DNA of 64,000 nt from Micromonospora zingiberis (GTDB lineage Bacteria > Actinomycetota > Actinomycetes > Mycobacteriales > Micromonosporaceae): NCBI RefSeq assembly GCF_004331455.1, contig NZ_SJJR01000001.1, positions 124,001 through 188,000 on the forward strand, written 5' to 3'. This document shows positions 58,048 to 64,000 of the stretch, in pieces (position 1 is the first letter of the stretch; the number at the start of each line of letters is the position of its first letter). A program made the translations under genes and the position numbers. Below the pieces are notes generated by a model. That model was not told where the DNA came from. It was given only the letters and a program-made list of their open reading frames with translations, and made no database searches.

Positions 58048-58190
58048 CGGCCCGGCCGGGCGCCCGCACCCGGCCCGGATAACGAAACGATCACTGCTGC
58101 GAACCTTTTCCCGGGCCCCGCCCCTTGTGTTGCGTAACGACATCGACCACGGGCCACAGCGGCCCGCGACGCAGCGGGGGTACAGGACGG

Positions 58191-61100
58191 ATGAGGTTCG
58201 CGTTGCGGCGTGCCCGCGCGACGAAGGGACTGCTGCTCGCCGCCGCCGGAGCGGCACTGGTGGCGACGGTGGCCCTCACCGGGCTGGCCGCGTACAGCCG
58301 GGACGTCGTCGACTCCGGCACCCGCAACGTGCTGAGCGCAGCCACCGCGCAGGAACGGTCGGTCCTCGTGCGGGCGTCCGCCGGGCGTACCGTCGAGGCG
58401 TTGCGGGAACGCGACACCGCGCTGCGCGAACACGTCGAGGCCGACCTGGACGGGCTACCCGCCCGGGTCAGCACCGCCGGATACGCCGCCGGCCGGCAGT
58501 TGCGCGGCGACATCGGCGACGCCGTCGCCGACCGCACCGGCACCACGTACGCCTCGGTGATTTTCCTCGACGACCTGCCCACACACGCCCGACTCGTCGA
58601 CGGTGCCTGGCCGCAACCCCATGCGGGACGCGTCCAGACCGCGCTGGCCGCCGCCGCGGCGGCCACCCTGAGGGTGGGTGTCGGTGACCGGATTCCGATC
58701 ACCGACGGGCTGACCGACCGGGTCACCGAGGTGAGCGTGGTGGGTGTCTTCACGCCCCTGGACCCCGACGCCGCGTACTGGCGGCTCGCCCCGGAGACGG
58801 CGACCGGTTCGCTACCGCAGGCGGCCACGTACGGTCCGATGGTGGTGGCCCAGGACGACTTCACCGCCCACTTCCTGGCCAACGCCTCCGCCGGTTGGCT
58901 CGTCGAACCGGACCTGTCCGGGGTGGGCACCGGCGCCGCCCTGGACCGGCTGGCCACGGCCGCGCGCCAGATCACCACCAGCACCCCGGCCGCGGCCGGT
59001 CTCGGGGACTCGGCGCTGGCCACCAGCGACCTCGGTGCGCTGGTGCAACGGCTGCAACAGGCCACCCTCGTCGGCCGGTCCGCGCTGGTCACCCCGATGC
59101 TGCTGGTGGTGGTGCTCGGCGGGTACGCGCTGCTGCTGGTGGCCGTGCTGCTCACCGAGCACCGTCGGGGTGAGACCGCCCTGCTGCGCGCCCGGGGCGC
59201 CGCCCGCTGGCAGTTGGCCGGGCTGACCGCCCGGGAAGCCACCCTGGTGGTGCTGCCCGCCGCCGGCCTCGCCCCGCTGCTCGCCGCCGAGTTGCTCGGC
59301 TTCGCCGACCGGCTACCCGGGCTCGCCGCGATCTCGCTGCCGGCGGACCACACACCCGATGCGGTGGTGTGGCTGGTGGCGGGTGCCGCCGCCCTCGGCT
59401 GTGCGCTGGCGATGATCGGACCGAGCCTGCGTCGCGGGGACAGCTACGTCGCCGACCTGGCCAGCCGGTCCCGACCCAGCCGCCGGGGCATGGTGCAGCG
59501 GGCCGGGCTGGACCTCCTCCTGGTCGGTCTGGCCGTACTCGCCTGGTACCAGCTCAGCCGCTACTCCTCCCCGCTGTCGCGTTCCCGTGGCGGGGACCTG
59601 GGCGTCGACCCGCTGCTGGCCGCCGCACCCACGCTGGGTGTGCTGGCCGGGGCGGTGCTGGCGTTGCGGCTGCTGCCGCCGCTGATCCGCCTCGCCGAAC
59701 GGTGGCTGGACCGTCGACCGTGGACCGCCACCATCCTCGGCACCTGGCAGGCCGGCCGACGCCCGCACGCCGGACCGGTGCTGCTGCTCGCCCTCGCCGT
59801 CGCGGTCGGCACCCTCGCCTGGTCCCTCGCCAGCACCTCCGACCGGTCCCTGCGGGACCAGGCCGCCCACCGCGTCGGCGCCGACCTGCGGCTGACCGAG
59901 GTCAACAACACCGCTCCGGACGGCCGGGCCGAACAGGTCGCCGGCCTGGCCGGCACCCAGGCGGTCCGGCCGGTCTGGCGGGACAGCGTGCGCCTCGGGC
60001 CGGCCGCCGAACCGGCCACCATGCTGGCGGTGGACGCCGACGCCGCCCGGGACGTGGTCCGTGTCCGCGCCGACCTGGCCGGCGGGTCCACCGGTCAGCT
60101 GTTCGACACCCTCACCGAAGGACGGGTCCAGACCCCGGCCACCACACTGCCCGCCGACACCCGGCGGCTGACCGGTCGCCTGCTCACCCGCGCCGACGGG
60201 TACGAGGTCAGCGGCTCGGTACGCCACCAGGCGGTGCTCGTGGGCCCCCGCGACGCCCACCGGCGGCTGCCGTTGGGCACCAGCCGCGACCGGGAAACCC
60301 TGCGCTTCTCCGTCGACCTGCCGGCCGTGGGCGGCCCGTGGCGGCTGGCCGGGTTCACCGCCGAGACCGTCGGCTCACCGGGAATGACCCTGGACTGGCG
60401 GCTGTCCGACCTGCGGGCCAGCTCGGATGCCTCGGCCGGCACGCCGATCGACCTGACCGGCGGGAAACCGTGGCGGCTGCTGGGCCGCGATGGTCCGGTG
60501 GCCACACCCACCGTGACCGGTGGCGCCCTGCACGCCCGCTACGTCCGCCCCCAGTCCGAGGGCTGGTACGGCCGACCGTCGCTGGTACAGCTGGGTATCA
60601 CCCGGCCCGCCGAGGGACGGGTGCCCGTGGTGGCCACCCCGCAGGCCCTCGCCGCCCTGCGGGTCGACGCCGGCGCGCAGACCCGGTTGTTCCTCGGTGG
60701 CGCCGACGTCGACGTGACCGTGGTCGGCACCGTGTCGGCGCTGCCCGGTGACGCCGAGGACGCCGCCCTGCTGGTCGACCTGCCGTCGCTGAGCGCGCGG
60801 CTGTTCCACGACAGCGGTCTGCTCCGTACGCCGCAGGAGTGGTGGCTGTCCACCGAGCCCGGGCAGGCCGAGCAGGTGGGCGCGGCGGCCCTGGCGTTCG
60901 GTGGGCTGAGCGTGCTGAGCCGTGAGGACGTCGCCGCCGAGCTGGCCCGCGACCCGTTCGGGGTGGGGGCGCGCGGCGCGTTGTTCGGCGCGGCGCTCGC
61001 CGCCGTGCTCCTCGCCGCCGTCGGCATCGCGGTGGATGTCAGCGCCACCGCCCGACGCCGGGCCGCCGAACTCGCGGTGTTGCACACCCTCGGCGCGGGA

Positions 61101-61394
61101 CACCGCCTGGTGGCCCGGTCCCTGCTGGCCGAGCAGTCGTTGCTCGCCGGGATGGGCGTACTGGTCGGGCTGGGCGTCGGGGTCGGCGTCGCGGCGACGA
61201 TGGCGCCGCTGGTCGTCCTCACCCCGTCCGCCGACCGGCCCGATCCACCGCCACTGCTGAACGTCGACTGGCTGCCGGTGCTGGCCACCGGCGTCGGCCT
61301 GCTGGCCCTGGCGTTGGCGTTCAGCGCCGCCGTCTCGGTGACCATGCGGCGTCGGCTCACCGCCACCCACCTCCGCACGGGGGAGGACCGGTGA
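58191..61394 (+). CDS. Large FtsX-like ABC permease (first of two)
   Basis: A 1067 aa membrane protein. A charged N-terminus and one helix (GLLLAAAGAALVATVALTGLAAY) lead to a large exterior domain. The first FtsX-type helix set is near ALVTPMLLVVVLGGYALLLVAVLL...ALLRARGAARWQ, followed by a second half with ALLLALAVAVGTLAW, a second exterior region, and a last set near RRRAAELAVLHTLGAGHRLVARSLLAEQSLL. It fits the MacB/LolE-type mechanotransmission permeases. The ATPase must be encoded elsewhere, probably beyond 64 kb. Start ATG 58191 is tentative. Confidence 0.83.
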   Translation: MRFALRRARATKGLLLAAAGAALVATVALTGLAAYSRDVVDSGTRNVLSAATAQERSVLVRASAGRTVEALRERDTALREHVEADLDGLPARVSTAGYAAGRQLRGDIGDAVADRTGTTYASVIFLDDLPTHARLVDGAWPQPHAGRVQTALAAAAAATLRVGVGDRIPITDGLTDRVTEVSVVGVFTPLDPDAAYWRLAPETATGSLPQAATYGPMVVAQDDFTAHFLANASAGWLVEPDLSGVGTGAALDRLATAARQITTSTPAAAGLGDSALATSDLGALVQRLQQATLVGRSALVTPMLLVVVLGGYALLLVAVLLTEHRRGETALLRARGAARWQLAGLTAREATLVVLPAAGLAPLLAAELLGFADRLPGLAAISLPADHTPDAVVWLVAGAAALGCALAMIGPSLRRGDSYVADLASRSRPSRRGMVQRAGLDLLLVGLAVLAWYQLSRYSSPLSRSRGGDLGVDPLLAAAPTLGVLAGAVLALRLLPPLIRLAERWLDRRPWTATILGTWQAGRRPHAGPVLLLALAVAVGTLAWSLASTSDRSLRDQAAHRVGADLRLTEVNNTAPDGRAEQVAGLAGTQAVRPVWRDSVRLGPAAEPATMLAVDADAARDVVRVRADLAGGSTGQLFDTLTEGRVQTPATTLPADTRRLTGRLLTRADGYEVSGSVRHQAVLVGPRDAHRRLPLGTSRDRETLRFSVDLPAVGGPWRLAGFTAETVGSPGMTLDWRLSDLRASSDASAGTPIDLTGGKPWRLLGRDGPVATPTVTGGALHARYVRPQSEGWYGRPSLVQLGITRPAEGRVPVVATPQALAALRVDAGAQTRLFLGGADVDVTVVGTVSALPGDAEDAALLVDLPSLSARLFHDSGLLRTPQEWWLSTEPGQAEQVGAAALAFGGLSVLSREDVAAELARDPFGVGARGALFGAALAAVLLAAVGIAVDVSATARRRAAELAVLHTLGAGHRLVARSLLAEQSLLAGMGVLVGLGVGVGVAATMAPLVVLTPSADRPDPPPLLNVDWLPVLATGVGLLALALAFSAAVSVTMRRRLTATHLRTGEDR

Positions 61395-61558
61395 GCGCGA
61401 GGAGTGAGCTTGCGAGCCCCGCAGCCGCGAACGAAAGGCCAGCTCGGTGAGCGCGAGGAGTGAGCTTGCGAGCCCCGCAGTCGTGAACGAAAGGCCAGCC
61501 CGGTGAGCGCGAGGAGTGAGCTTGCGAGCCCCGCAGCCGCGAACGAACGGGAGGACCG
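61391..61558 (+). repeat. Three tandem 56-bp units forming a chain of coupled mini-ORFs
   Basis: Units start at 61391, 61447 and 61503, with exact 56-bp period and few differences. Each carries GTG..TGA for 19 codons (VSARSELASPA-A/V-...-ER...R). Its stop overlaps the GTG of the next unit as GTGA. The first GTGA holds the stop of the upstream permease, and the last holds the GTG of the downstream permease at 61559. The 17-bp sequence GGGAGGACCGGTGAGCG occurs at both edges (61381 and 61549). Confidence 0.85.
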
Positions 61559-64000
61559 GTGAGCGTGCGACGGTTTCGGGCGTACGGCGCCCACCTGGGG
61601 CTGCTGGCGGTGTTGGGACTGGTGGCGGCGTTGCTGGTGACCGCCGCACCACGGCTGGCCAACGGGTACGGCGACCGGGGGTTGCGTGCGGACGTGCAGC
61701 GGCTGCCGCACCTGGTCCGCGACGTGTCGATAGCGGTCGAGCAGCGGCCCCACGACGTCACGGTGGCCGAGGCCGGTCAGGCCGCCCTCGACCAGCACGC
61801 CGAAGGGCTGCCGCAGCCGTTGCCCGCCCTGATCGACCGCCGGTGGTATGCCGCCGGGCTGCCCGAGGAGAAGTTGACCGCCACCGGTGACGACCCGCCG
61901 ATGGACGGTGGCGCGACCAAGCTGTTCGGGTTGCGGGCACAGACCGGGGTGCCGGAGGCCGCCGTCGTCGTTGCCGGGCGGTGGCCGCGTACCCAGCCGG
62001 GTGGGCCGGCCGAGTTGGCGGTGTCGCAGCGGCTGTCCGAGACGCTGTCGCTGCGGCCCGGCACCCGGTTACGGCTGACCGGCCCCGGAGGGGTGGCGCA
62101 GGCGCAGGTCGTCGGGGTGTTCGATCCGGTCGACGCGGATGATCCGGTCTGGGACGACCTGAAGGTCGGCCTGGAACCGGTCGTTCCGATCGAGGACGGT
62201 GAGCCGTACGTCACCCGGGCGGTCACCGACTGGGCGGGACTGGATGGCGTCGCCATGGCCAGCGGTGTCCCGGCGGTGTACAGCTGGCGGTATCGGGTCG
62301 ACGAGCACCGGCTGACCACCTCGACGTTGGCGGAGGTCACCGCGGCGGTGGCCGAGACGCGGCGCACCGAGTGGCTGCCGGGTTCGACGGTGCAGACGTC
62401 GCTGGACTTCGCGCTGGTCCGCTTCGCCGACCAGTTGAACGCGGTACGGGCGCTGCTGGCCGTGGTGCAGGCCGGGCTGATCGCCAGTCTCCTCGGGCTG
62501 ATCCTGTTGGCCGCCCGGCTGGCGGTGCAACGCCGCCGCGACGAGTTGGCGTTGCTGCGGGCGCGGGGCGCGTCGCTGACCGCGATCGGTTGGCGGACCC
62601 TCGCCGAGGCGGCGCCGGTGCAGCCGGTGGCCGTGCTGGTCGGCGCGTTGATCGGTAGCCGGATGCCGGGGCGCACCGACGGTGGGCTGTGGCCGCTGGT
62701 GCTGCTCGCCCTGTTGACCACCGCCGTGGTGCCGGCGCTGGCGATGTTCTCCGCGCGGCGGGTCGGGACGGTCGCCCGCCGGGCGGATCTGATCCGGCAA
62801 CGTCCGTCGGTGCGGCGGCTGACCCTGGAGGCCGGTGTGCTGGTGCTGGCCGTCGTCGGCGTACTGCTGCTGCGCCGTCGTGGTCTCGATGCGGCCGGTG
62901 GGGTCGACGCGTACCTCAGTGCGGTGCCGGTGCTGGTCGCGGTCGCCGCCGCACTGGTGGCGATCCGGTTGCTGCCGTGGCCGCTGGGGCTCGCCGGCCG
63001 GCTGGCCGGGCGCGCCCGGGGTGCGCTGCTGTTCCTCGGGGTGGCGCGGGCCGGGCGGGGGGATCCGGTGGCGTTGGGGCCGCTGGCCGTGCTGATCGTC
63101 GCGGTCAGTACGGGGGTGTTCGGTGGGGTGGTGACGACCACCGTGGCGGCCGCCCGGGATCGGGCCGCGACGCTGACCGTGCCGGGCGATGCCCTGCTGA
63201 CCGGGTACGCCTTCACCCCCGACGCCGGTGCCGCGCTGGCCGAGGTGCCGGGGGTGGCGGCGGTGGCCCGGGTGTGGGTCGACTCGAACCGGCGGTTGCT
63301 GTCCGACGACGGGCCGCAGGCCCGGCTGCTCGGCCAGGCCCGGGTGCTGGTGGTGGACGGTCCCGCGTTCGCCGAGGTGGTGGCGCACAGCGGCGTCGAC
63401 ATCGACGTGCCGGCCGCGTTGCGGGCCGCCGAGCGGGGCGACGCCGCGGTGCCCGCGGTGGTTTCCCCGCAGGTGGCGGCGGATCTCGGTGACGCGGTGG
63501 TGGCGGCCGACGTGCAGGGCCGGCTCTACGGGTTCCGGGTCGCCGCGGTGGCCGATGACTTCCCCGGCGTCGGGTTGGGCGTGGAACGGTTCGTGGTGCT
63601 GCCGTGGCAGGCGCTACCCGAGTACGCGGACACCCCGATCATCCCGAACCAGTACCTGCTCGCCGGGGACGACATCGATCAGGCGCGGCTGCTGGGTGTC
63701 GCCGACGACGCCCAGCGGCAGCGACAGTCTGCGGTGCTCGGCGTGGCGGTGACCCGGCCGCAGTTGCCGGCGGCGGTGCAGACCTGGCGGGCGTACCGGG
63801 AGGGGTTGGACCGCACCGGCGCCAACGAGGTGCTGACCCTGGCGTTCACCGCCGGTGCGGCCGGTGGGACGGCGTTGGCCGTACTCGCGGTGGGGTTCGC
63901 GGTGGTCGCCGACGCCGGTGGTCGGGGCCGGATGCTGTCCCGGTTGCGCACGCTGGGTCTGTCCGCCGCCCACGGCCGCCGGCTGCTGGTGTACGAGTTG
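61559..64000 (+). CDS. FtsX-like ABC permease (second), 3' end outside window
   Basis: The frame is open from GTG 61559 to the end of the window (814 codons, no stop). The first helix is LGLLAVLGLVAALLVTAAP. An exterior domain with GRWPRTQPGG and LVGVFDP-like blocks follows. FtsX helices appear from about residue 300 (ALLAVVQAGLIASLLGLILLAARLAVQRRRDELALLRARGAS). A second transmembrane set lies near 750-800. It probably pairs with the permease encoded just upstream and an ATPase downstream. GGGAGG 4 nt before the GTG is its ribosome binding site. Confidence 0.82.
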   Translation, partial: MSVRRFRAYGAHLGLLAVLGLVAALLVTAAPRLANGYGDRGLRADVQRLPHLVRDVSIAVEQRPHDVTVAEAGQAALDQHAEGLPQPLPALIDRRWYAAGLPEEKLTATGDDPPMDGGATKLFGLRAQTGVPEAAVVVAGRWPRTQPGGPAELAVSQRLSETLSLRPGTRLRLTGPGGVAQAQVVGVFDPVDADDPVWDDLKVGLEPVVPIEDGEPYVTRAVTDWAGLDGVAMASGVPAVYSWRYRVDEHRLTTSTLAEVTAAVAETRRTEWLPGSTVQTSLDFALVRFADQLNAVRALLAVVQAGLIASLLGLILLAARLAVQRRRDELALLRARGASLTAIGWRTLAEAAPVQPVAVLVGALIGSRMPGRTDGGLWPLVLLALLTTAVVPALAMFSARRVGTVARRADLIRQRPSVRRLTLEAGVLVLAVVGVLLLRRRGLDAAGGVDAYLSAVPVLVAVAAALVAIRLLPWPLGLAGRLAGRARGALLFLGVARAGRGDPVALGPLAVLIVAVSTGVFGGVVTTTVAAARDRAATLTVPGDALLTGYAFTPDAGAALAEVPGVAAVARVWVDSNRRLLSDDGPQARLLGQARVLVVDGPAFAEVVAHSGVDIDVPAALRAAERGDAAVPAVVSPQVAADLGDAVVAADVQGRLYGFRVAAVADDFPGVGLGVERFVVLPWQALPEYADTPIIPNQYLLAGDDIDQARLLGVADDAQRQRQSAVLGVAVTRPQLPAAVQTWRAYREGLDRTGANEVLTLAFTAGAAGGTALAVLAVGFAVVADAGGRGRMLSRLRTLGLSAAHGRRLLVYEL

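Follow-up and report, generated by a model that had tools for sequence, protein, structure and literature searches.

A short dispersed repeat at stop/start overlaps of co-directional genes in Micromonospora

Two groups of bacterial repeats come closest to the element described here: the mycobacterial interspersed repetitive units (MIRUs), which reportedly go back to Supply et al. in 1997, and the repetitive extragenic palindromic sequences and bacterial interspersed mosaic elements (REP/BIME), palindromic and extragenic repeats that are short, dispersed and sometimes arranged in tandem. Our element is a 56-bp unit that forms a threefold tandem between a gene for an FtsX-like permease and the next gene in a stretch of 64,000 nucleotides from Micromonospora zingiberis (contig NZ_SJJR01000001.1, positions 124,001 to 188,000 of the forward strand), referred to below as the window. 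According to the literature, MIRUs are apparently mobile, insert at start codons, carry a small open reading frame (ORF) coupled at -4 nt and probably have a minimal impact on the gene (PMC12548453); they measure 40-100 bp and vary in copy number (PMC2734929). At senX3-regX3, units of 77 and 53 bp and promoter activity have been reported (PMC4213456).

In the testable features, and by description, the unit works like a MIRU, the resemblance being one of function. Both are short dispersed units at gene junctions that vary in tandem number and apparently insert with preservation of coupling. Our unit has periods of 54-62 nt, 1-5 units per site and 6-82 core matches per genome; the upstream stop lies at its position +1 in 88 of 108 arrays, 77 of these 88 are coupled, and at three junctions units were found in some species and bare overlaps in others. 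By our own arithmetic, the reported 77 and 53 bp leave a remainder of 2 on division by three, as do the 56, 59 and 62 nt of our unit. The differences concern the hosts, which are mycobacterial for the MIRUs, whereas the Micromonospora core pattern forms no family elsewhere in our phylum sample, and the range of states, since for the Micromonospora unit bare sites, remnants and subtype swaps were seen at the same junctions across species. In their geometry, the bare junctions match termination-reinitiation coupling at 4-nt ATGA/GTGA overlaps exactly, and each hop of the relay is made on DTGA (D in the IUPAC code), but inserted units lengthen the junction, with 1-5 of them at the permease junction. 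The unit shares its shortness, dispersal and occasional tandem arrangement with REP/BIME; in contrast to these palindromic, structure-forming repeats, it is positioned by reading frame and does not fold better than shuffled sequences (z of 1.12, -0.06 and 0.35 for one composite sequence per subtype, three subtypes in all).

The kind of element is known from mycobacteria. As far as our literature search shows, four aspects are new: a second host family, the existence of bare sites, the compensation of the frame between subtypes and the near-absence, in numbers, of copies that break the frame. No description of this repeat was found, also in searches aimed at Micromonospora and Micromonosporaceae; as most subscription journals lay outside the coverage, the absence of a description is unproven. 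The unit provides an independent case, outside the mycobacteria, of an apparently mobile unit that preserves coupling. Junctions such as ruvA-ruvB and murG-murC offer a natural series of presence and absence, copy number, remnants and frames; therefore, sequence can be used to measure how strongly selection acts on termination-reinitiation coupling, and what each extra reinitiation costs can be tested in laboratory actinomycetes.

The insert and its family

In our reading, to which we assign a probability of roughly 0.8, the insert is made up of three tandem copies of a short dispersed element whose insertion sites are DTGA stop/start overlaps of co-directional genes and which preserves their coupling. 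The 168-bp insert (61391-61558) consists of three direct 56-bp units starting at 61391, 61447 and 61503, and the next GTG follows at 61559. Each unit carries an ORF of 19 residues plus TGA (61391-61450, 61447-61506 and 61503-61562, encoding VSARSELASPAAANERPAR, VSARSELASPAVVNERPAR and VSARSELASPAAANEREDR, respectively), the TGA of which overlaps the next GTG by 4 nt; the GTGA relay of 19-codon ORFs that a first-pass annotation of the window had seen in this tandem is thus borne out. The general architecture is as follows: the upstream gene stops on a GTGA with which the unit begins; from that GTG the unit has an open frame; the 3' end of the unit resembles a Shine-Dalgarno (SD) sequence; and the ORF of the unit stops on the DTGA of the downstream start. 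At our locus, the upstream ORF ends with TGA 61392-61394 inside the first GTGA of unit 1, and the last unit ORF stops on the GTGA that starts the downstream gene.

This arrangement suggests how the insert may be tolerated. A ribosome that finishes the upstream gene would restart on the unit, translate about 19 codons, stop and restart again, so that the downstream start would be reached. Since the ribosome would be handed on to this start, an insertion would be nearly silent, and a change in copy number would cost the operon little. Selection would remove copies that break the path, and the near-absence of such copies from our sample indeed indicates purifying selection on the reading path. 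The 19-residue peptides would then be by-products.

All three units lie on the forward strand. Unit 1 (61391-61446) belongs to the TTGC subtype and contains a second, staggered GTGA (61404-61407) 13 nt past the first, which would stop ribosomes of another frame and could restart them. Unit 2 spans 61447-61502, and unit 3 (61503-61558) has a tail that differs from those of units 1 and 2. The unit head GTGAGCGCGAGGAGTG (up to two mismatches) occurs three times in the window as compared to 0.13 expected occurrences. The 17-bp edge sequence GGGAGGACCGGTGAGCG, already noticed by the first-pass annotation on both sides of the insert, is present in exactly two copies in the window (shuffles expect 0): the left one (61381-61397) spans the end of the upstream gene, the GTGA junction and the first bases of unit 1, and the right one (61549-61565) ends within the first codons of the downstream gene, both on the forward strand. 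In relatives with one or two units the right edge differs (M. radicis, ...GGCGGAACCCGTGAG; M. qiuiae, ...GGCGGGACCGGTGAGCG). As the exact repeat is missing from the relatives examined, the 17-bp edge probably does not simply go back to a duplication at the original insertion.

Rather than marking an event between two permease genes, the unit forms a family dispersed across the genus, and it is thus more general than noted earlier. The window's own genome (6.5 Mb) contains 30 matches to the insert, several of them within one array. The core pattern (GAGCCCCGCAGTCGCGA, one mismatch allowed) was found in all 101 sampled Micromonospora genomes (6-82 matches each; 0-1 for the reversed control). The head pattern (two mismatches) occurs in 151 of 250 genomes of the family, with many matches in Micromonospora and a few other genera and mostly 1-2 elsewhere, close to the control. 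Among 396 genomes that sample the phylum, 26 have core matches: 40 and 42 in two Micromonospora genomes, but only 1-2, comparable to the control, in the other 24 of 394. In the sampled genomes, the unit sequence is restricted to the family to which the window belongs. Three main subtypes, with 23, 26 or 28 nt between head and core, have both ends in common.

The reading path in arrays and at orthologous junctions

Arrays were collected from the window's genome, from 30 single loci of other genomes of the genus, from larger samples of four genomes (G020, G073, G030 and G033), from a few loci of G011 and from orthologues of the permease junction. After removal of 9 duplicates and one array that was too short, 133 of 143 arrays were kept, 86 of them single units and the rest tandems of 2-5. 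The first-pass annotation would have regarded the coupling as coincidental if most copies lay in gaps without a preserved frame. This is not what we see: in 108 of the 133 arrays both flanks are confidently coding and on the strand of the element, as compared to 4 with one opposing flank and 21 unresolved cases. Judged by protein matches, gap-pgk and hisD-hisC are among the gene pairs with copies at their junctions.

In 88 of these 108 arrays, the upstream gene stops precisely on the TGA that belongs to the first DTGA of the unit. When termination and restart were followed over overlapping DTGA sequences to the downstream start, 77 of the 88 paths were coupled, 9 were fused in frame with the downstream gene, 2 ended near its start and none was broken, even though equal thirds would be expected by frame. 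This supports the earlier claim that the insert conserves coupling. Clustering by both flanking proteins into 71 independent sites gave the same picture for this class (49 coupled, 7.1 fused, 2 near, 0 broken), and the three arrays entered via the second GTGA of the unit comprise two coupled ones and one whose path ends close to the downstream start. The frame is sensitive to small changes: an in silico deletion of one nucleotide in the tail broke 63 of the 88 paths, and a deletion of two turned 77 into fusions and broke 9. Moreover, 42 of 50 coupled sites have a tail with an SD-like motif, as compared to 27.9 when the tails are shuffled.

The lengths of the units point in the same direction. 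The linkers of the subtypes differ by +3 or +5 nt, and yet the length of the last unit keeps a remainder of 2 in 28 of 31, 18 of 18 and 37 of 48 cases; the exceptions have a remainder of 0 (2 and 11 cases) or 1 (one case). Tails mostly measure 33 nt in the 23-nt-linker subtype and 31 or 34 nt in the 28-nt-linker subtype. Because of this shift the exit frame is kept although the longer linker adds a number of nucleotides that is no multiple of three, and this compensation therefore supports selection over the mere inheritance of a length. Between units the rule is relaxed: in 47 multi-unit arrays the inner periods have remainder 2 in 25, remainder 0 in 20 and remainder 1 in 2. Periods of 54, 57 and 60 nt (remainder 0) fuse the units in frame and are tolerated at unit-to-unit junctions, and one array with 61-nt periods (L167, remainder 1) still reaches the gene by hopping via the second GTGA.

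The comparison of related species suggests that the unit is apparently mobile, as it is present or absent at the same junctions. At the permease junction, the downstream orthologue was recognisable in 23 of 101 genomes of the genus: 16 loci have unit cores (1-5 each, so that the copy number at one junction differs between species), 4 have a bare GTGA or ATGA, 2 have other coupled spacers and one (L214, the anchor of which was found only with many mismatches allowed) is doubtful. The bare loci fit the earlier proposal that the two genes would share a single GTGA overlap without the insert. Thirteen of the 16 unit-bearing loci are coupled (L203 among them), two are fused (L204 and the shortened L210) and one is scored as broken (L213). 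For ruvA-ruvB, the 30 best of 61 matches comprise 9 loci with units, all coupled, 16 bare overlaps and 5 other coupled spacers; for murG-murC, the 30 best of 60 comprise 12 with units, again all coupled, 4 bare, 12 with other coupled spacers and 2 with head remnants in frame. Taken together, 34 of the 37 unit-bearing loci are coupled, 2 fused and 1 scored as broken, and the 46 loci that lack a unit core include 24 bare 4-nt overlaps, 19 other coupled spacers, 2 remnants and the doubtful one. The two remnants (L345 and L349) are 18 nt of the unit head in frame with the murC start, and it is possible that decay of the unit may leave an N-terminal extension on MurC.

Different subtypes were found at one junction in different species or together in tandem (L003 and L190, one junction in two species; L063 and L198, both at the permease junction). 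This suggests conversion or repeated insertion at one site.

Competing explanations

Several observations weigh against our reading. No mobilising enzyme and no clear target-site duplication at the edges were found. One filled locus (L334) and one bare locus (L335) have matching flanks, with ATGACG at both sides of the insert; at 50 sites, however, the D of DTGA is not concordant between the two edges (36 GG, 11 GA, 2 AG, 1 AA), and because of this difference a fixed target duplication cannot be claimed. A simple DTGA target-site duplication is thus not supported by the concordance of D, although the 2 nt before DTGA, and only these, match beyond chance (35 and 31 of 50 as compared to 25.0 and 16.8 in shuffled pairs; 17 and 17 as compared to 12.1 and 11.3 at 29 single-unit sites). 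Sites were chosen by the core pattern, with 30 core matches without a head set aside, and decayed copies are therefore under-represented; the species compared at ruvA-ruvB and murG-murC are no independent samples. The rule is less strict in the 13 arrays with the upstream stop ahead of the unit (6 coupled, 5 fused, 1 near, 1 broken), and in 4 of the 108 arrays the path could not be followed. A sample from a different genus (G135; 10 arrays, taken from the first 30 of 66 matches) contains only 3 arrays with the stop at +1, and its downstream frames are split between remainder 2 (coupled type, 5) and remainder 0 (fused type, 5), with none of remainder 1. At the permease locus scored as broken, following the units leads to the expected GTG; the tested gene frame, however, begins only at residue 72 and is disturbed before. 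Finally, the canonical unit lengths of 56, 59 and 62 nt already have remainder 2, and part of the frame conservation may therefore come with the moving copy.

This last point is the strength of the idea that insertion bias alone is at work, i.e. that the element moves to DTGA sites, in copies of a length with remainder 2, and coupling is kept without selection. The 24 bare junctions at the three loci, all DTGA overlaps, agree with it as well. Yet, changes in length are one-sided, with 20 arrays of remainder-0 inner periods versus 2 of remainder 1, and the exits of the main class comprise 9 fusions versus no broken path; moreover, the three loci also hold 19 coupled spacers that are unrelated to the unit (a twentieth, L214, has the doubtful anchor). 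We therefore consider insertion bias alone unlikely. A regulatory DNA or RNA element such as an internal promoter, a terminator or an attenuator, in which the ORFs would be incidental, is distinctly less probable still, even though one study reports that the senX3-regX3 MIRU region drives senX3-independent expression of regX3 (PMC4213456). A consensus scan of 61300-61650, limited to sigma-70 for promoters, detected neither a promoter-like nor a terminator-like site, which speaks against a promoter or terminator in the insert. With RNA folding no better than that of shuffled sequences and no Rfam match at E<=1, a conserved hairpin was rejected as well; a leader-peptide attenuator or a known RNA element is disfavoured by the missing Rfam match and terminator-like site, and a regulatory element would leave the frame rule unexplained. 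The first-pass annotation had left it undecided whether the mini-peptides are by-products or functional; the former is favoured, and a function of the 19-residue peptides appears very improbable to us. As would be expected for functional peptides, nearly all sites have an open frame and conservation is strong in the first codons, but variation is spread evenly over the codon positions (0.029/0.076/0.034 at 16 sites, 0.045/0.067/0.058 at 11 and 0.067/0.049/0.070 at 41), i.e. there is no codon-position signal of selection on a peptide, and thus the DNA rather than the peptide is conserved. In addition, the second half of the +5-nt subtype is in another frame, and units are fused in many arrays. 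Since codon-position conservation is even and folding is no better than that of shuffles, the unit is accounted for neither by its peptide nor by RNA structure.

It is tempting to extend the reading of a coupling-preserving insertion further: the unit might be a genus-wide mobile element specialised in overlaps as safe harbours by means of a built-in ribosome bypass (two staggered GTGA, an open frame and an SD-like tail), and the number of units (1-5) might serve as an evolvable rheostat of the ratio of gene products, as each extra unit would add a termination-reinitiation step or lengthen the bridge. We regard this extension as rather doubtful.

Flanking genes and further variants

The annotation of both flanking genes as permease genes is borne out by Pfam for one of them. 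The upstream gene (58191-61394, forward strand) encodes a protein of the Pfam FtsX permease family (PF02687, E 1.6e-16); ATG 58191 is the candidate start in our reading, the mechanically called ORF begins at 58125, and the stop is the TGA at 61392-61394. The downstream gene (forward strand, GTG 61559) is a 911-aa open frame that extends past the window end at 64000, and the 813 residues encoded inside the window have no Pfam match at E<=0.001.

Two contig ends of the window's genome (L006/L012 at the end of C12 and L011 at the start of C30) carry an array with a 55-bp variant of the unit. In our reading, this variant and its neighbouring genes lie on opposite strands; the variant lacks GTGA, contains a CCCGAGC/GCTCGGG inverted repeat and falls outside the coupling rule. 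It adjoins a gene beginning VTAADYADQLKDLDATLRNIEAVLDLDRLRADK, which we take to resemble release factor 2. In the single-contig chromosome of another genome (G020:C1), the listed copies change strand at about 5.1 Mb, being mostly on plus before and mostly on minus after this point, perhaps reflecting the orientation of genes or of replication.

Some junctions carry spacers of a different kind. At murG-murC, 12 of the 30 genomes (L350, L351, L353-L357, L359-L362 and L365) have an unrelated short spacer with a conserved GCGACSGGAAGGTAC and a mini-ORF that ends on ATGA; 6 of these 12 are entered by TGATG instead of DTGA. In L363, L364, L366 and L367 a mini-ORF of this type follows the repeat unit, and ATGA is again where the path ends. 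At the permease junction, L215 has another spacer, the ORF of which begins MSERIIQLSGTGTRRDGERSEAAR and is coupled at ATGA on both sides; its motif is sparse in the genus, being found in 16 of 61 genomes with 0-2 matches each.

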